A stretch of 51,433 nt of DNA from Gemmatimonadota bacterium (GTDB taxonomy: Bacteria; Gemmatimonadota; Gemmatimonadetes; Longimicrobiales; Gaopeijiaceae), in NCBI GenBank assembly GCA_028874985.1, contig JAPPGI010000194.1:1-51433 (forward strand), written 5' to 3'. Positions 8,385-17,290 of this stretch are shown piece by piece. Both the position numbers and the translations under genes were made by a program. The notes under the pieces are model-generated. The model was not told where the DNA came from and did not search any database. It was given only the letters and a program-made list of their open reading frames with translations. Positions within the stretch are counted from its first letter, which is position 1; the number at the start of each line of letters is the position of its first letter.

Positions 8385-9170
8385 TCAACCGTACCGCCCC
8401 TCGATGTAGTCCGAGGTCTCGGAGTGCTCCGGGGCCAGGAACAGCTCTTCGGTCCGGCCGTGCTCGATTATCCGCCCCAGCAACATGAACACGCACTCGT
8501 CCGACGCGCGGCGGGCCTGGGCCATGTTGTGGGTCACGATCAGGATCGTGTAGTCACCGCGCAGCTTCCAGATCAGCTCCTCGACGGCCTCGGTTCCCGC
8601 CGGATCCAGCGCCGAACAGGGCTCGTCCATGAGCAGCACCGCGGGCTTGACCGGGAGCAGCCGCGCGATGCAGAGCTTCTGCTGCTCCTCCAGCGACAGC
8701 CCCGTCGCGGGCTTGTCCAGGCGGTCCTTGACCGTGTCCCACAGGAGTACCTGTCGCAGCGACGATTCCAGCACCTCGTCCTCTTCCGCGGCCGACACCC
8801 TGCGCAGGCGCGCCTCGTGCAGCTTGAAACCGAACAGGACGTTGTCGCGGATCGAGATCGGGAGCGGATTGGGACGCTGGAAGACCATCCCGATCTGCTT
8901 GCGCACCTGCACGAGTTCGACATCGTCGCCGAAGATGTCGTGGCCGAGCACGTACACGCTCCCCGTGGTGCGCACGTAGCCGAGCCGCTCGATGATGCGG
9001 TTGCAGGTCCTGAGCATGGTGGTCTTGCCGCACCCCGAAGGCCCGATCATCGACGTGATGATCCCGCGCTTCACCGTCAGGTCGACGTCGTAGAGCGCCT
9101 GGAAGTCCCCGTACCAGAGGTTGAGCCCCCGGGTCTCGATGGCATGGTCGCCGCGCGCGCCGCTATCCAA
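8385..9170 (-). CDS. pstB: Phosphate ABC transporter ATPase, PstB2 (degenerate signature motif)
   Basis: One of two PstB-type ATPases that power phosphate import at the inner membrane. Walker A GPSGCGKTT lies near residue 40, Q-loop MVFQRPNPLP near 100, Walker B LLMDEPCSALD near 180 and the switch histidine in IVTHNMAQA near 213. The signature motif, LSGGQQQRLCIAR in ordinary PstB, is LSLEEQQKLCIAR here (near residue 158), so both glycines are lost. The start is a TTG at 9170 that overlaps the stop of the preceding pstB gene by 8 bp, which suggests translational coupling. It is the last gene of the pst operon. It probably pairs with the other PstB as a heterodimer. Confidence 0.9.
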   Translation of the reverse strand: MDSGARGDHAIETRGLNLWYGDFQALYDVDLTVKRGIITSMIGPSGCGKTTMLRTCNRIIERLGYVRTTGSVYVLGHDIFGDDVELVQVRKQIGMVFQRPNPLPISIRDNVLFGFKLHEARLRRVSAAEEDEVLESSLRQVLLWDTVKDRLDKPATGLSLEEQQKLCIARLLPVKPAVLLMDEPCSALDPAGTEAVEELIWKLRGDYTILIVTHNMAQARRASDECVFMLLGRIIEHGRTEELFLAPEHSETSDYIEGRYG

Positions 9171-9971
9171 ATCGCCCCTCGAGATAACCTGTGGTTCGCC
9201 TGTCCTTCACCTTGCCCTCGAACAGGTCTTCGGTCACACCGGTCTCGACCAGTTCGCCCGTGAGGAAGAACGCGGTGCGGTCGGCCAGCCGCCGCGCCTG
9301 CTGCACCAGGTTCGTAACCAGCACGATCGTGATCTCCGATCGCAGTTCCCTGAGCACGTCCTCGATGCGCATCGTCGTCACCGGGTCGACGGCGATCGAG
9401 AACTCGTCCAGCAGAAGCAACTCGGGTTCCTGCGACAGCGCGCGCGCGATCGTCAGGCGCTGCTGCTGTCCTCCCGAGAGCAGGCTCCCCAGCGAATCGA
9501 GACGGTCCTTGACCTCGTCCCACAGGGCGGCCCGGGTCAGGCACCGCTCCACCACCTCGTCCAGCCGCGCCTTTCGGCGGATTCCGCGGAGGCGCGGCGA
9601 GAAGGCCACATTGTCGTAGACTGACAGGGGCAATCCCACGGGAAGCGGAAACACGACCCCGATCCGGCTCCGGAGCGCATACTCGTTGCGCCAGTCGTTG
9701 ATGTTCTTGCCGTTGATGCGGATGCTTCCCGCCACCTGCATGGCCGGGTTGAAGGCGTCCATGCGGTTGAGCGCGCGCAGGAACGAGGTCTTGCCGCTGT
9801 TGGCCGGCCCGACAATCCCGAAGATCTCGTGCCGGTACACATCCAGATCGATGTCGCGGAGCGCGGGCCTGCCCCGGTAAGAGATCACCAGATCGCGGAC
9901 TTCGACCAGGGGCTGCTCCTCGTAGAGGGGAAAGGCGCTCCCGTCCGCGCGTTCCGGCGCGGCCGCCGCGT

Positions 9972-9978
<7 letters not shown>
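9163..9978 (-). CDS. pstB: Phosphate ABC transporter ATPase, PstB1 (H-loop histidine replaced)
   Basis: PstB-family ATPase of 271 residues. Walker A is GPANSGKTS near residue 55, the signature is canonical (LLSGGQQQRLTIAR near 166) and Walker B is LLLLDEFSIAVD near 188. The H-loop reads LVTNLVQQA near 222, so the switch histidine is Asn. The D-loop is also unusual (AVDP). These changes complement those of PstB2. The start is the GTG at 9978, which overlaps the pstA stop codon (GTGGTAG). The first 25 residues are an Ala/Pro-rich tail before LVEVRDLVISYRG. Confidence 0.9.
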
Positions 9979-10841
<863 letters not shown>

Positions 10842-10921: not shown

Positions 10922-11854
10922 CTACTTCTTCCCGACGCCGCGAACCACGAGGTCGGCCGTCAGGTTGACGACGAACGTCACCACGAAGAGCAGGATTCCC
11001 AGGGTGAAGAGGGACCCGTAGTGGTCGGACCCGACGGGGGCGTCCCCGAGTTCGGCGGCGATCGTGGCGGTCAGCGCGCGGACCGAATCGAAGGGGCTCG
11101 TGGGCAGATTGATGGCGTGCCCGGAAGCCATCAGCACGGCCATGGTCTCTCCGAAGCCCCGGCCCACGCCGAGCAGCACGGCCGCCAGCAACCCGTTCCG
11201 GCTGGCCGGAATCACCACCTTGACCACGACCTCCCAGCGAGTGGCCCCAAGCGCCTCCGCCGCCTCCCGGTAGCTGTCCGGTACGGCCTTCAACGCGTCC
11301 TCGGCGATCGTGGTCATGATCGGCGCAGCCATCAGCCCCAGGATGAGGCCGGCGTTCAGCACCGTCAGCCCCACCGGCACATCGAAGATCCGTATGATCA
11401 GCGGATTCATGATCGACATCCCGACGAAACCCCAGACCACCGAGGGGATCGCCGCGAGCATCTCCACCAGGACCTTGAGGATCTCACGGGTCTTCCCCCG
11501 TGCGAACTCGGCGATGAAGAGCGCCGCACCCAGGGACAGCGGCACCGAAAAGAGCATCGCGAAGCCGGTTACGCTCGCCGTGCCCACAATGAGAGCCAGC
11601 GCTCCATAGGTGGGATTGTTCGAGGTGGGCCGCCACGCGATCGACGTGAGGAACTCACCCGGTTGAAGCGGCCCGAAAACGAAGCCCAGGCCCTCCTTGG
11701 TCACGAATACGAAGATCCCGACGATGAAGACGATCGCCGAGATGCCGCCTGCGAAGATGAGCCCCTGCGCGACCCGGTCCACGTACCACGCCGCGTCCCG
11801 GCGGTCCATTGCACCGGACCTCGGCGCGGCGGCGGAATCGGCCGGCGGGGTCAC
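10922..11854 (-). CDS. pstC: Phosphate ABC transporter permease PstC
   Basis: Second membrane subunit of the phosphate importer, about 310 residues. Six hydrophobic helices are visible, the first at IFAGGISAIVFIVGIFVFV. The EAA loop is EAAEALGATRWEVVVKVVIPASRNG, followed by the PstC hallmark GVGRGFGETMAVLMASGH. The start is taken as the GTG at 11854, which overlaps the TGA of the PhoU-like gene (GTGA). An ATG at 11809 with GAGG upstream would remove 15 polar residues and is an alternative. Confidence 0.92.
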   Translation of the reverse strand: MTPPADSAAAPRSGAMDRRDAAWYVDRVAQGLIFAGGISAIVFIVGIFVFVTKEGLGFVFGPLQPGEFLTSIAWRPTSNNPTYGALALIVGTASVTGFAMLFSVPLSLGAALFIAEFARGKTREILKVLVEMLAAIPSVVWGFVGMSIMNPLIIRIFDVPVGLTVLNAGLILGLMAAPIMTTIAEDALKAVPDSYREAAEALGATRWEVVVKVVIPASRNGLLAAVLLGVGRGFGETMAVLMASGHAINLPTSPFDSVRALTATIAAELGDAPVGSDHYGSLFTLGILLFVVTFVVNLTADLVVRGVGKK

Positions 11855-12933
11855 TCCTCGTCCCGAACTCCCAGGGTCGTCATCAGGTCGCGCACGCGCA
11901 CCATCAGGGTCCGGTAGAGCTCGGCGGCGCCCGTGTCGGGGGTGACCCCCTCCTCCCCCAGGTCCCACTGGAGGACCGCCGTACGGTACGGAACCTCGAA
12001 GTGCCGCGACGGATCCACGTCCAGGCCCACGACCACGTGGTAGTGCCGGGCCACGTCGAGCGCATCGTCGAAGGAACGGGGAGCGTCATCGGACGGCAGC
12101 ACGATGCCCCGGCGGCGGCAGAAGGCCAGCAGTTTCGGATCGAAGGCGTCCCCGGGCTCCAGCCCGGCGGAGCCGAAACGTCCGGCGTGCGGATGGCTCT
12201 CGGCGAGCGCGATCTCGGCCAGTTTGCTCGCCATGGCGTGGTCCGCGTCCAGAAACAGGATGCGGTATCGCTTGGGTTTCTTGCGCTTGCCGGTGACGGC
12301 GAAGAGCGTCTGCTGAACGGTGTTCTCGGCCTGTTCCGCCGAGCGCTGCAACAGGCGAAACACCAGCAGGGCGCCGAAGAGATCCCGGGCCGGCCGACGT
12401 TCGGATTCGGCGGCGGAGATCAGGCCTTCAAGGGCATACGGGTAGCTCGCCGCGGTCTGCGACGCGATCCCGCGAGAGACGCGGGCCATGTCGGGGTCGC
12501 CGTCGAGAAACCCCACGAGCGCGGTTCCAAGTGCCTTGCCCGCATGCTCTCCCATCATCCCGACGTTGTGCTGGACCGTGTGCGGAAGCGGCGACTCGAT
12601 CTGCCGCGCCACCCGGCAGATCGCGACGGAATAGTCCCCAACCCTCTCCAGGGCCACCGCTAGTCGCAGCACGGCCGAGATGAAGCGAAGGTGGCTCCCG
12701 CTGGGAAGGTGGCGTGCCACGAACAGGTGGCACAGATGATCGAGGTCCCGGATCTCCTGGTTGACGGCGCGGTCCTTGATCACGGTTTCGTTGGCCAGCC
12801 GGCCGTCCAGGTCCAGTACGGACCGGACACCGTGGCGCAGATTCTCCTGGACCTGCTCGGAGACCGTGCGCAGCCTTGCCCGGATCTCGAGCAGATCCGC
12901 TTCCAGCCGCTTGTCGTAGAGGCTCAAGCGCAC
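11851..12933 (-). CDS. phoU: PhoU domain fused to an inactive low-molecular-weight phosphatase/ArsC-like domain
   Basis: Predicted regulator of phosphate uptake and signalling, 360 residues against about 220-240 for ordinary PhoU. Residues 1-210 are helical and PhoU-like (LRHGVRSVLDLDGRLANETVIKD, then AVALERVGDYSVAICRVARQ, where the ERIGD/AxxIA-type signature lies). Residues 220-360 match the LMW protein tyrosine phosphatase/arsenate reductase fold: RILFLDADHAMASKLAE at the P-loop position, GSAGLEPGDAFDPKL, RRRGIVLPSDDAPRS, a late LQWDLGEE and a terminal helix YRTLMVRVRDLM. The catalytic CX5R loop reads D-A-D-H-A-M-A, so both Cys and Arg are lost and the domain should not be catalytic. The GTG start at 12933 overlaps the pstS stop. 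It may act as a sensing or docking domain. Confidence 0.8.
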   Translation of the reverse strand: MRLSLYDKRLEADLLEIRARLRTVSEQVQENLRHGVRSVLDLDGRLANETVIKDRAVNQEIRDLDHLCHLFVARHLPSGSHLRFISAVLRLAVALERVGDYSVAICRVARQIESPLPHTVQHNVGMMGEHAGKALGTALVGFLDGDPDMARVSRGIASQTAASYPYALEGLISAAESERRPARDLFGALLVFRLLQRSAEQAENTVQQTLFAVTGKRKKPKRYRILFLDADHAMASKLAEIALAESHPHAGRFGSAGLEPGDAFDPKLLAFCRRRGIVLPSDDAPRSFDDALDVARHYHVVVGLDVDPSRHFEVPYRTAVLQWDLGEEGVTPDTGAAELYRTLMVRVRDLMTTLGVRDEE

Positions 12934-13979
12934 TCCACTTCCGTATAGGGCGCGTAGCCGCGCTCCAGGATGACGCACTGGCCCTCGGCGGAGCGGATCC
13001 AGTCCATGTAGTCCTTGATCGCCCCCTGCGGCCGGCCCGCCGTGTACATCATGAGCGGGCGTGCGATCGGGTAGGTTCCGGTGACGGCCGAGGCGATGGT
13101 GGGTTCTACGCAGTCCGCCCCTTCCTCCGCCGCGATGCACGGCATGCGAACGTGCTCCGTGGCGTAGGCGAGCCCACTGTAGCCGATCGCGCACGGGGTG
13201 TTCTCAACCAGTTCGACGACGTCCTTGGAGCCGTGCATGTCGCGCGACCCGAGCTTGTATTCGGTGTCGTCGCCGAGCACCGCCTCCTTGAAGTAGACGT
13301 ACGTTCCCGAGTTGTTCTGGCGGCTGACGAGGACGATTTCGTCGGTGCCACAACCGGGAACGGCAACGCCCAGATCCGACCACCGGGTCACGTCCCCTCC
13401 CTCCCCGTAGATCGCCTTCAGCAGGGCCAGCGTCATACTCTCGATCGGGTTGTCGGCATGCAGGTAGACGGCCAGCGCATCGTAGCCGACGATGAACTCG
13501 ATGGGTTCGACTCCGTTGCTTCGGGCGGCCTCCAGTTCGCTTTCGCGCATCTTGCGCGACGAGTTGGCGATATCGACCGTACCGTTGATCATCGCCGAAA
13601 TCCCGGTCCCGGACCCCCCTCCCGTGACCGCTACCGACACATTGGTGTTGACGTTCTTGTAGGTCTCCGCCCAGGCCTGGGCCACATTCAGCAGGGTGTC
13701 CGACCCCCTGTTCTGGATCAGCGCCCGCTGGTCGCGGTCACCGCCGCCGCAGGCAACGATGCCGAGGAGTCCGTGGATGAACCAGCGCGAGCACCGAGAG
13801 CGGTGAGGCGCCGGGCCGGCAAGGCGCTTTGAAGGGGGAATAGCAGCGCTATTCGCCCGAAAAGCAACGCAGAGCGAAGCGATCCAGCCCGGATGCATCG
13901 ACGCTCGAATGCCGTGGGGGTTTTGTCCGCGGGCTCCTAGGCCTGCCAACGGGACGATTCGCTGGACGATTCGCTTCAT
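12924..13979 (-). CDS. pstS: Phosphate-binding lipoprotein PstS with repeat-derived insertion near the N-terminus
   Basis: Periplasmic or membrane-anchored phosphate receptor that feeds PstC/PstA. Family features are SDTLLNVAQAWAETYKNVN, the phosphate-loop region TGGGSGTGISAMINGTVDIANSSR and VSRQNNSGTYVYFKEAVLG. A lipobox (GIVACGGG) lies about 70 residues from the ATG at 13979. The intervening residues 13-60 are encoded by the dispersed repeat at 13791-13942 in an open frame, so MKRIVQRIVPLA and the hydrophobic WFIHGLLGIVAC, which look like two halves of one signal peptide, are separated by about 48 foreign residues. Whether this precursor is still exported, or translation starts inside the repeat, is unclear. 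Confidence 0.88.
   Translation of the reverse strand: MKRIVQRIVPLAGLGARGQNPHGIRASMHPGWIASLCVAFRANSAAIPPSKRLAGPAPHRSRCSRWFIHGLLGIVACGGGDRDQRALIQNRGSDTLLNVAQAWAETYKNVNTNVSVAVTGGGSGTGISAMINGTVDIANSSRKMRESELEAARSNGVEPIEFIVGYDALAVYLHADNPIESMTLALLKAIYGEGGDVTRWSDLGVAVPGCGTDEIVLVSRQNNSGTYVYFKEAVLGDDTEYKLGSRDMHGSKDVVELVENTPCAIGYSGLAYATEHVRMPCIAAEEGADCVEPTIASAVTGTYPIARPLMMYTAGRPQGAIKDYMDWIRSAEGQCVILERGYAPYTEVECA
13791..13942 (-). repeat. Dispersed palindromic repeat, copy 4, inside pstS
   Basis: The longest copy, 152 bp. The core is GAATAGC-AGC-GCTATTC at 13838-13854. Relative to copies 1 and 2 the pair next to AATAGC is G:C in place of C:G, a compensated change that keeps the stem. Flanks match GCAACGCAGAGCGAAGC, GGATGCATCGACGCTCGAATGCC and GTCCGCGGGCTC. 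It is contained within the pstS open frame without introducing a stop codon. Confidence 0.88.
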
Positions 13980-14124: not shown

Positions 14125-15192
14125 TCAATAGTAGAGGTAGGTCTGCAACTTGAAGGAGAACTCCCTCGTATCGGGCCCGGACCGGTAGCTGTCCAGATTC
14201 ACGCCGATCCGGTTCTTCCCCTTCACGTACAGGAAAACGCCAGGCGTCAGGAGAAGGCCGCTGTCGTCTCCGACCGCCCGGTCCGGGTCTCCCCAGCTCG
14301 CGCGGAACATCGGTTCCACCGCCTCGAACCGTTCTCCCTCCAACGGGAAGTACCTGCTGAGGATCGTCTGCCAGGTGAGGAACCGCGGGATTTCGTTCGC
14401 CGACGGCGTCGCGAGGCGCCAGTTCTCGCCCCCGACCAGGCCGACCTGAAGGTGCGTTCCCCCGCGAAAGCCGCCGATCTCCAGGTCACCCCCGAACGCC
14501 ACGCCGACTCGGGTATCCGCGGTTTCGCCAACGAAATCGTGCCGCGACACATTGGCCGCGAGGACCACACCTTCCGCCAGCCGGACCGAGACACGGCCGG
14601 CAAGCGACTTGCCGGAATTCTCGTCCGCGCCCCCGGTGCCCGTCCCATTGGTCAGCGTGGCCATGTAGGTGACGTGCTCACCGAGGGAGCCGTCCGCCTT
14701 GAACCCGATATCCCGGTCCGAATACGACAGTTTTTCCGTGAAACGGCTGAGAGTGCAGGGTCCTTCCGGTCCCGCGCACCCGCCCACCCCGTCGATCCTG
14801 CCCGTCCTTTCCACGACCACGATGTCTGTCGAGCTGTTCAGTTCGAAGATGTCGAAGGCCCTCTTGAACTGGCCCACCGAGAGCCGGAGCCGACGGTCGA
14901 ATTTGAGCCGGAAATAAGCGTCCTTCAGTTCCAGCTTCCCACCGCCGAAGTCGGGTTGTACCCGGGCATCGAGCAGGGGTGAGACGCGGACATCCAGCGT
15001 GAGCCGCGCTCGCCGCGTGAAAAAGTCGGTCGACTTTCCCTCCGCAGCCGAACTCGTCGCGAGCTGGGAGTGGAGACGTCCGCCGAAGCGGATCTCAGCG
15101 TCGCGGGCGTTGATCTCCGCCTGACCCGCCAGGGTCCCGGGGCCACACAGGCCCACACCGAGCACCACACCGAGCAGTCGAGGCTTCAGCAC
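14125..15192 (-). CDS. OprP/OprO-like phosphate- or polyphosphate-selective porin
   Basis: Outer-membrane beta-barrel predicted to admit phosphate, 355 residues. It has a signal peptide (LLGVVLGVGLCGPGTLAGQA), then alternating strands such as EIRFGGRLHSQLATS, ARLTLDVRVSPLLDARVQPDFG and LELKDAYFRLKFDRRLRLSVGQFKRAF, the last being the phosphate-porin signature. It ends in an aromatic terminal residue (LYY), as expected for BAM recognition. The GTG at 15192 is chosen because GGGAGG lies 8 bp upstream. It sits just upstream of pstS on the same strand with its own PHO-box-like promoter, so a role in phosphate uptake is a sound inference. Confidence 0.85.
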   Translation of the reverse strand: MLKPRLLGVVLGVGLCGPGTLAGQAEINARDAEIRFGGRLHSQLATSSAAEGKSTDFFTRRARLTLDVRVSPLLDARVQPDFGGGKLELKDAYFRLKFDRRLRLSVGQFKRAFDIFELNSSTDIVVVERTGRIDGVGGCAGPEGPCTLSRFTEKLSYSDRDIGFKADGSLGEHVTYMATLTNGTGTGGADENSGKSLAGRVSVRLAEGVVLAANVSRHDFVGETADTRVGVAFGGDLEIGGFRGGTHLQVGLVGGENWRLATPSANEIPRFLTWQTILSRYFPLEGERFEAVEPMFRASWGDPDRAVGDDSGLLLTPGVFLYVKGKNRIGVNLDSYRSGPDTREFSFKLQTYLYY

Positions 15193-15268
15193 TACACAAC
15201 CTCCCTTTTCCGGGGATTCCCGAGGGCCGGACCGGGTCATATGCCACCCCGCCTCCGACTCGTGAACA

Positions 15269-15398: not shown

Positions 15399-16670
15399 TC
15401 AGCTCTCCTCGCCGACCGCCTTCCGCAGCACCTTCCGGATGTCGAGCCCCAGCGCCGACGCCAGTCCCTCCATGGTTCCGTAGGCCCCCTTGACACGCTG
15501 GTTCAGGGCGTTGGACACCCCCTCGCCCCCGCCGCCGTCCATGACCACCACCCTGTCGATGTCGACCCCCCTGACCGCCTCCACCGCGGTCTCCAGAAGC
15601 TCGGGCAGCTTCTCGGCGATGAACACCGCGAAGGCGGCCTCGCCCCCGGCCCCCACCTCCCCGTAGAGCCGCCTCAGCACCTCCACCTGCGCCTTCCCGC
15701 GCTCCAGGATCGGCGCGGCCTCCGCCTCGGCCCGTGCAAACGCCGCCATCTTCGCGGCCTTGGCCGGCTCCACCACGTCCGCCCGCAGACGCTGCTCCTC
15801 GCGTTCCACCCGCTTCATCTCGAGGACCTTCTCGGCTTCGACCTCGGCCTCCTGCGCCTTGACCCGCGCGATCTTCTCGGCCGTCTCGCCCTCGCGGTCC
15901 AGCTCGGCCTGGCGGACCCGCAGCTCGTTCTTCGCCTCGGCCACCTTGATCGCCGCCGCCGCCTCCCTCACCTCCGCCCGCCGGCTGGCCTCGGCCTGCG
16001 CCTCGCGCGTGTCGGCCCGCTTCCGCGCTTCCGCGATCTCCGCCTGGCGGATCGCCTCGGCCGACTTCTCGCGTCCGATCGCGGCCAGGTAGCCCCGCTC
16101 GTCGCTCACGTTCTGGATCTTGAGCACGTCCAGATGGAAACCCAGCGAAGCCAGATCCTCGCCGGCATCCTCGGAAAGGGCCTTCGCGAAGCCCAGCCGG
16201 TCCTCGTTGACCGCCTCGGGCGTGAGGGTGGCGAGCACGCCGCGGAGGTTCCCGGTCAGCGTGTCCTGGGCCAGCGCCTTGATCTCCTCCTCGGTCTTCC
16301 CCAGCAGCCTTTCGACCGCGTTGTTGAAGACCCATTCCGGCTCCGAGGCGATCTTCACGTTGGCGATCGCCTCCACGTTGAGCGGGATGTTGCCCTTGGA
16401 AAAGGCGTTGCTCACGGAGACCTCGATCGGGATGGTCTCCAGGTTCATGTGCTGGACCGTCTCGATGATCGGCACGCGGAAGACCCGCCCCCCGGAGATG
16501 GAGCGGTAACCCACCCGCTGTCCGTCCGTGAGCAGACGGTTGCGGCCGGTCAGCACCGCGGCCCGGTTGGGCGGCGCGATGACGATCAGGCTCTTGATGG
16601 TCGCGACGAGCACGACGATGGCGATGACGATGACGAGGCCCGCGATGAGGGCCGCGATTGGCGTGGGCAC
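15399..16670 (-). CDS. Flotillin-like SPFH/band 7 membrane scaffold protein
   Basis: Flotillin family (YuaG/FloT or YqiK type), 423 residues. An N-terminal transmembrane segment (residues 6-30, AALIAGLVIVIAIVVLVATI) precedes an SPFH domain (PPNRAAVLTGRN, FRVPIIETVQHMNLETIPI, NVEAIANVKIASEP). From about residue 190 there is a long Ala/Glu/Arg-rich coiled coil (AEAIRQAEIAEARKRADTREA), then a glycine-rich tail with a conserved terminal helix. The GTG start at 16670 has AGGAGG 6 bp upstream. It lies 38 bp after the NfeD-type gene, the classic pairing. It probably organises membrane microdomains and protects membrane integrity under stress. Confidence 0.9.
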   Translation of the reverse strand: MPTPIAALIAGLVIVIAIVVLVATIKSLIVIAPPNRAAVLTGRNRLLTDGQRVGYRSISGGRVFRVPIIETVQHMNLETIPIEVSVSNAFSKGNIPLNVEAIANVKIASEPEWVFNNAVERLLGKTEEEIKALAQDTLTGNLRGVLATLTPEAVNEDRLGFAKALSEDAGEDLASLGFHLDVLKIQNVSDERGYLAAIGREKSAEAIRQAEIAEARKRADTREAQAEASRRAEVREAAAAIKVAEAKNELRVRQAELDREGETAEKIARVKAQEAEVEAEKVLEMKRVEREEQRLRADVVEPAKAAKMAAFARAEAEAAPILERGKAQVEVLRRLYGEVGAGGEAAFAVFIAEKLPELLETAVEAVRGVDIDRVVVMDGGGGEGVSNALNQRVKGAYGTMEGLASALGLDIRKVLRKAVGEES

Positions 16671-16708
16671 TTACTGCCTCCTGTGGGTTGGGGGGCTCGC
16701 GCCCCTTT

Positions 16709-17290
16709 TCATTCTTCGAGCAACTTGGGCGCAACGGGGCTTACGGCGGCGATCCCGTCCTTCATCTCGACCACCACCACGGCCTGGCCGGCGCTCAGCG
16801 GTTCTTCGCCCTGCCACGTTTCCGCCGCCCGGGCCCGGATGCGGATCCGCCGATCTCCCCTGCGCACGGTGACGGCGCCCCGGCTTCCCGGCGCGATCTC
16901 CAGCGACACTTCGCCCGCCAGGCCGACGAACGACTGCTCCCCGCGCAGGGTCCCCGCCTCGGTGCGCCTGAGGTAGCCGAAGACGGTCGTGATGAGTGCG
17001 CCCGAAGCCAGGCCGGTGCCACCCGCGACCGCGGCCGTGAGGACCGGCTGGCCGCCACCCCAGATAGCATGGAGAAGCGACCCGGCGGCGCCGAAGCCGA
17101 AGAGGGCGTAGATCACCGCGCGTATGGAGAAGAGCTGCGCGATTCCGCTGCCGTGGGCGGCCGCGTCCAGGTCCGCCCCGGCATCGAGATCGGTGTCGAG
17201 GTCGACGTCGCCCTCCAGGAAGTCCCCGAAGAAGGAGAGGGCGAGGAAGCCGCCGCCGATCGCGAGGCAGAAGATGTAGGCTGTGAGCAT
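16709..17290 (-). CDS. NfeD-like membrane protein (YuaF type) paired with flotillin
   Basis: Membrane protein of 193 residues with three to four hydrophobic helices (MLTAYIFCLAIGGGFLALSFF; FSIRAVIYALFGFGAAGSLLHA; LTAAVAGGTGLASGALITTVFGY). It ends in an OB-fold domain (LAGEVSLEIAPGSRGAVTVRRG to AVVVVEMKDGIAAVSPV) typical of NfeD partners of SPFH proteins. After the first helix is an Asp-rich segment (EGDVDLDTDLDAGADLDAA) seen in YuaF/YqiJ-like members. The ATG at 17290 has GGAG 8 bp upstream. It forms an operon with the flotillin gene. Confidence 0.85.
   Translation of the reverse strand: MLTAYIFCLAIGGGFLALSFFGDFLEGDVDLDTDLDAGADLDAAAHGSGIAQLFSIRAVIYALFGFGAAGSLLHAIWGGGQPVLTAAVAGGTGLASGALITTVFGYLRRTEAGTLRGEQSFVGLAGEVSLEIAPGSRGAVTVRRGDRRIRIRARAAETWQGEEPLSAGQAVVVVEMKDGIAAVSPVAPKLLEE

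Follow-up and report, generated by a model that had tools for sequence, protein, structure and literature searches.

The means by which PhoU connects the Pst transporter with phosphate signalling has long been an open question, and the locus described here raises it in a particular form: what is the role of a PhoU protein that is encoded within a pst operon and carries at its C-terminus a domain related to arsenate reductases but bereft of their catalytic residues? The locus lies in the window, that is, the whole stretch of 51,433 nucleotides of a Gemmatimonadota genome that was analysed. An earlier note on this DNA had described the gene at 11851–12933 as a fusion of PhoU with a pseudo-phosphatase of the LMW-PTP/ArsC fold, set in the pst operon and suggestive of a phosphate-sensing or regulatory module. 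The open reading frame is genuine but lies on the minus strand (the plus-strand reading of 11851–12933 was discarded, its translation being interrupted); it starts with GTG at 12933 and ends with the stop codon at 11851–11853. In close relatives, a stop codon is located two codons upstream of the same start position. The operon setting had likewise been recognized correctly, but the note missed that this is a distinct Pst operon with an asymmetric pair of ATPases, PstB1 and PstB2. Hereafter, the fusion gene and its product are denoted phoU* and PhoU*. The operon and the adjoining porin gene comprise:

14125–15240, minus strand: phosphate-selective porin O/P (PF07396), directly upstream of pstS
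12924–13979, minus strand: pstS (TIGR02136, above cut-off)
11851–12933, minus strand: phoU*, a PhoU + pseudo-ArsC fusion of 360 amino acids, its GTG start overlapping the end of pstS
10922–11968, minus strand: pstC (TIGR02138, above cut-off)
9972–10841, minus strand: pstA (TIGR00974, above cut-off)
9163–9975 (upstream end approximate), minus strand: pstB1; Walker A and LSGGQ kept, Q-loop Gln replaced by Pro, H-loop His replaced by Asn, LDEFSIAVDP
8385–9170, minus strand: pstB2; Walker A, Q-loop and H-loop kept, signature LSGGQ replaced by LSLEEQ

Curated models identify a Pst importer, with PstS, PstC and PstA above their cut-offs and the two PstB proteins assigned by best model, which is PstB in both cases, but with scores of 280 and 311 against a cut-off of 343. 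Because the listed pstC frame overlaps phoU*, its start is probably nearer to 11809–11854. A porin gene on the same strand upstream is also present in 20 other loci, nearly all from the window's genus. Other genes of the window encode, on the minus strand, a Band 7/SPFH (flotillin-like) protein (PF01145) and an adjoining small protein without a Pfam match, conceivably an NfeD-like partner (15399–17290), a protein with an aminoacyl-tRNA editing (YbaK/ProX-like) domain (PF04073; 6945–7427, minus strand), and a PIN-domain protein (PF13470; 17827–18285), possibly the toxin of a toxin-antitoxin pair.

The two halves of PhoU*

The domains of the fusion protein and the site of its former P-loop are as follows:

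12283–12912, minus strand: PhoU domain, residues 8–217 (TIGR02135, PF01895, structure match to 4q25)
11863–12270, minus strand: pseudo-ArsC domain, residues 222–357 (family profile, structure comparison)
12226–12249, minus strand: former P-loop, residues 229–236, D-A-D-H-A-M-A-S in place of C-X5-R-S (ungapped alignment)

Residues 8–217 match the full-length PhoU model with both repeats (TIGR02135, E = 8e-27; PF01895, E = 1e-14), the TIGR02135 score of 94 being below the equivalog cut-off of 130, which a relative (L131) exceeds with 146. In the AF2 model, this half superimposes on PhoU of Pseudomonas aeruginosa (4q25) over 209 residues at 1.4 Å (VIA-align, Z 30.6). The metal motif of repeat 1, E96xxxD100 (ERxGDY), is invariant in all 85 proteins compared, and that of repeat 2 is eroded, with Glu retained in 31/85 and Asp in 27/85; the window protein reads QRSAE (Q196, E200). 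Mapping of the Salmonella PhoR and PstB contact residues onto the PhoU half gave no clear outcome.

When the window protein alone was searched against Pfam/NCBIfam, no LMWPc match was obtained for its last 140 residues; PF01451 (LMWPc) is matched by 12 of 19 members of the fusion family (best E = 7e-9), and the profile of 19 relatives matches solved arsenate reductases (3t38, E = 7e-11; 1y1l, 6e-10; 2l17, 3e-9). The AF2 model of the full-length protein has a mean pLDDT of 89.5 and a pTM of 0.64, the latter being low, so that the orientation of the two domains is uncertain; the pseudo-ArsC domain modelled alone reaches 90.4 and 0.87, respectively. Structure prediction, proposed in the earlier note as a check, thus returned no unrelated fold: in VIA-align comparisons of the full model, the C-terminal half matches Cg_ArsC1' (3t38) with Z 16.5 over 126 residues at 2.9 Å and pI258 ArsC (1jf8) with Z 15.7 over 125 residues, the best LMW-PTP remaining under both values at Z 14.9, and Foldseek searches with the domain alone ranked ArsC structures at the top. 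Residues 222–357 display the four-stranded alpha/beta arrangement with the P-loop after strand 1 and represent the LMW-PTP/ArsC fold, nearer to arsenate reductase than to LMW-PTP. Consequently, the designation ‘pseudo-phosphatase’ captured the fold and the catalytic inactivity but not the closest kin, which are arsenate reductases.

The replacement of CX5R by D-A-D-H-A-M-A was reported exactly: in an ungapped alignment, CVANSAR of intact Gemmatimonadota ArsC corresponds to DADHAMA in the window protein. A survey of PhoU fusions, also suggested earlier, showed that the catalytic loss recurs throughout the family. Across 86 distinct fusion proteins from Gemmatimonadota, Planctomycetota, Acidobacteriota and gammaproteobacterial MAGs, the nucleophile column contains Asp in 74/86, Gly in 12/86 and Cys in 0/86 proteins; Arg of the P-loop persists in 4/86, the resolving cysteines (Cys82 and Cys89 of pI258) in one and two proteins, respectively, and Asp of the general-acid column in 8/86. 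The pseudo domain accordingly lacks both the CX5R motif and resolving cysteines of an ArsC enzyme and the CX5R motif and DP general acid of an LMW-PTP.

The asymmetric PstB pair and its association with the fusion

The order PstS–PhoU*–PstC–PstA–PstB1–PstB2 is found in nearly all of about 80 loci from four groups, a few having PhoU* before PstS. Every PstB1 scored retains Walker A and LSGGQ and has Pro in the Q-loop, Asn in the H-loop and the motif DEFSIAxDP, and every PstB2 scored retains Walker A and the Q-loop and has L-S-L-E-E-Q or close variants in place of LSGGQ. The H-loop His of PstB2 is kept in all but L239, where it is Tyr; the near-identical L238 has His, and the Tyr is possibly a sequencing error. 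By ABC geometry, this complementary motif loss would leave one consensus and one degenerate ATP site: judging from sequence, the former would combine Walker A, Q-loop and H-loop of PstB2 with LSGGQ of PstB1, and the latter the Walker motif, Q-to-P and H-to-N positions of PstB1 with LSLEEQ of PstB2. We infer that PstB1 pairs with PstB2 as a heterodimer. The complementary loss seen at 8385–9975 recurs in at least three phyla and is arguably more unusual than the fusion itself.

The PstB1 hallmark was searched as a DNA pattern over the genome samples surveyed for the fusion. It is present in 38/38 fusion-carrying relatives, 20/21 Planctomycetota and 11/12 Acidobacteriota, that is, in 69/71 fusion genomes, and in 20/522 genomes without the fusion (both overall figures being hand counts from tables). 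In the two fusion genomes without the hallmark, the operon is cut by contig ends: in G553, the contig carries the fusion at base 1014 on the minus strand, and the contig of G740 appears, from matching coordinates, to correspond to L093, a record of 3.7 kb that breaks off within PstB1. The fusion is found only within the Pst operon with asymmetric PstB proteins. Asymmetric Pst also occurs without it, being accompanied, among the cases inspected, by a canonical PhoU in or beside the operon in four loci (L265, L268, L269 and L270) and farther off in L264; in loci L168–L172, no phoU was present in the stretch read. Asymmetric Pst is therefore the wider subtype, within which the fusion is derived, and an asymmetric transporter does not need the pseudo domain. 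On the same grounds, the notion that the fusion causes the PstB asymmetry was rejected.

Distribution and origin of the fusion

A GTDB genome scan returned 293 relatives of the query, of which 80 were kept, including MAGs named Planctomycetota, Acidobacteriota, Polarisedimenticolaceae and Gammaproteobacteria. The fusion is carried by 38 of 148 relatives (Gemmatimonadota), including 21 of the 23 genomes of the window's genus, and by 21/246 sampled Planctomycetota and 12/199 sampled Acidobacteriota genomes. Its presence in two single-contig genomes (G001 and G021) and in many independent MAGs rules out an assembly artefact.

In the tree of the ArsC half, the pseudo domains form one clade (99/98), which is joined by Arg-keeping intermediates at 98/99, and a tree of the PhoU half, built with a quick method, agrees on a single fusion clade (SH-aLRT 99). 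Both trees point to a single fusion event. The intermediates, four Acidobacteriota proteins (L216–L219), read VDQHNSCRS or VDEHNHCRS, with Cys already replaced by Asp and both Arg and the DP general acid kept, which suggests that Cys was lost before Arg and the general acid.

The earlier note had regarded close homologues with an intact CX5R motif as evidence against its reading. Such a motif occurs once, in the acidobacterial genome G782 (L220/L242; L242 6398–7513), where the reading frame of PhoU continues into an ArsC that retains CX5R, the resolving cysteines and DP. This fusion resembles PhoU* in joining PhoU and ArsC in one chain within a pst operon but differs in its intact active-site motifs, in its location at the 3' end of the operon and in the accompanying single canonical PstB of an otherwise ordinary pst operon. 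Its ArsC groups with the separate arsC that follows phoU in another genome, G140, and its PhoU falls among canonical PhoU proteins. Because it is separate in both domain trees, the fusion most likely arose independently, and this distant case leaves the finding standing; the protein probably combines PhoU with a working arsenate reductase. A direct ancestry of PhoU* from the L220 intact fusion, which sits on a long branch in the PhoU tree, is supported by neither tree. In G140 (L161 4563–7202), two canonical pstB genes and phoU are followed by the intact arsC directly downstream on the same strand, an arrangement outside the phoU* lineage which suggests how such fusions can arise.

Possible roles of PhoU* and relation to known systems

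A codon comparison of 210 pairs, drawn from the window's genus and its near neighbours, gave a median dN/dS of about 0.23 for the pseudo-ArsC domain against 0.16 for PhoU, so that the former is maintained by purifying selection. Together with the conservation of the dead domain over several phyla, this makes a regulatory role likely, as the earlier note had suggested. The phosphate-sensing part of that suggestion is weakened, since, as judged from the alignment, a conserved Asp for Cys combined with the loss of Arg should repel an oxyanion. We tentatively favour, with the balance a little short of even, the reading that PhoU* is a dedicated regulator of the asymmetric Pst importer, with its dead ArsC domain serving, without catalysis, for docking or gating. 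The PhoU core would dock on the PstB1/PstB2 pair, as does canonical PhoU, for which binding to PstB is established in enterics (PMC9239213), and docked PhoU* would hold or release the transporter depending on phosphate status. The ArsC domain may originally have served beside a transporter that also admitted arsenate, and only later been turned to docking or gating; the change of Cys to Asp would put a carboxylate at the oxyanion position and so lock the domain in a shape like that of the bound state, with no sensing of free phosphate.

Several alternatives should be weighed against this reading. The acidic loop might have become a new ligand site, binding a cation, a metal or a different metabolite, or its Asp might be a phospho-acceptor, in either case controlling PhoU. 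Asp is almost fixed at position 1 of the former P-loop, positions 2, 3 and 5 are often acidic, and several residues aligned with the described K+ site of pI258 ArsC (Asn, Glu and Ser) are kept; however, Gly takes the place of Asp in 12/86 proteins, and at positions 2, 3 and 5 acidic and basic residues interchange freely, so that we rate this possibility as unlikely, if worth keeping in view.

Because PhoR/PhoB-like genes are found near 18 of the 81 fusion loci, the main target of PhoU* may instead be a kinase of the PhoR type, on which canonical PhoU also acts; the pseudo domain would then be the part that docks on the kinase. Of 15 other genomes inspected, moreover, 6 yielded no PhoU besides the fusion, a count to be read with MAG incompleteness in mind, and in such genomes PhoU* may do both jobs. 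In the window genome, however, phoB and phoR sit with a second, canonical phoB-phoR-pstS-pstC-pstA-pstB-phoU locus (contig C97; L162 483–7106), which argues that PhoU* probably serves its own transporter, leaving PhoR to the canonical PhoU. At most fusion loci, the stretch read also contains no kinase gene; an action centred on the kinase seems improbable.

The dead domain could also still bind phosphate or arsenate and signal to PhoU. The P-loop scaffold persists, with Asn in 67/86 proteins (His in the other 19), the loop-end Ser in 77/86, Ser and Gly of the SAG motif each in 86/86 and the late Trp in 86/86; in the four intermediates, Arg and the DP general acid have survived as well. Such sensing is nonetheless distinctly improbable, because a carboxylate in the anion site, present in the 74/86 proteins with Asp for Cys, should exclude oxyanions, and Arg survives in just 4/86. 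It appears very improbable that the fused domain persists as a functionless relic in decay: its catalytic residues are gone and it evolves somewhat faster than the PhoU part, but its dN/dS is far below 1, the fold is kept, 11 of its columns do not vary in the family alignment, and the loci read include no truncated version standing on its own. Finally, the idea that the domain is still an enzyme, with the nearly invariant Asp as nucleophile, can hardly be entertained, given Gly at this position in 12/86 proteins, the loss of Arg and the general acid, and no retained residue suggestive of chemistry.

Returning to PhoU* as a dedicated regulator of its transporter, a broader model can be put forward as possible, although doubt somewhat outweighs belief: several phyla would share a Pst subtype driven by an obligate PstB1/PstB2 heterodimer in which one ATP site is dead, and the derived version would be controlled by a PhoU whose pseudo-ArsC domain clamps the asymmetric motor. 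For the question of PhoU coupling, such an operon offers unequal parts, namely two different ATPases, two PhoU repeats of which one has its metal motif and the other does not, and an extra pseudo-enzyme domain, each of which can therefore be removed or altered separately. The family also provides an evolutionary series, from intact ArsC through a Cys-to-Asp form keeping Arg to a fully dead domain.

The phoU* operon is a new combination of known parts, a pseudo-ArsC PhoU in a Pst subtype with an ATP site that is degenerate by sequence; a literature search on PhoU-ArsC fusions and degenerate PstB, with most subscription journals outside its reach, found no description. PhoU* shares with canonical PhoU (TIGR02135/PF01895) the six-helix two-repeat fold, the pst operon and the ExxxD motif of repeat 1, but adds the C-terminal domain, has an eroded metal motif in repeat 2 and is encoded between pstS and pstC rather than after pstB. 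The added domain has the fold, P-loop scaffold residues, SAG motif and late Trp of the thioredoxin/mycoredoxin-type arsenate reductases (pI258 and Cg_ArsC1' types) but lacks their nucleophile Cys, Arg, both resolving Cys and general acid; with LMW-PTP it shares the fold at lower similarity (Z 14.9 and below). As in pseudophosphatases such as STYX, the nucleophile is gone and the fold kept, the change being Cys to Gly in STYX and, instead, Cys to Asp here.

Two adjacent pstB genes with non-equivalent roles are present in one pst operon of Enterococcus faecalis (PMC12096839), whereas in the operon described here the two partners show complementary motif losses. A further parallel is provided by heterodimeric ABC exporters with a degenerate ATP site, TM287/288, TAP and Pdr5, the last of which combines the C-loop LNVEQ with a change of the H-loop His (PMC7756269). 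These exporters display the same complementary pattern as PstB1/PstB2, whereas the Pst transporter is a binding-protein-dependent phosphate importer; a degenerate-site heterodimer here, if true, would mean that a feature known chiefly from exporters is shared by importers as well.
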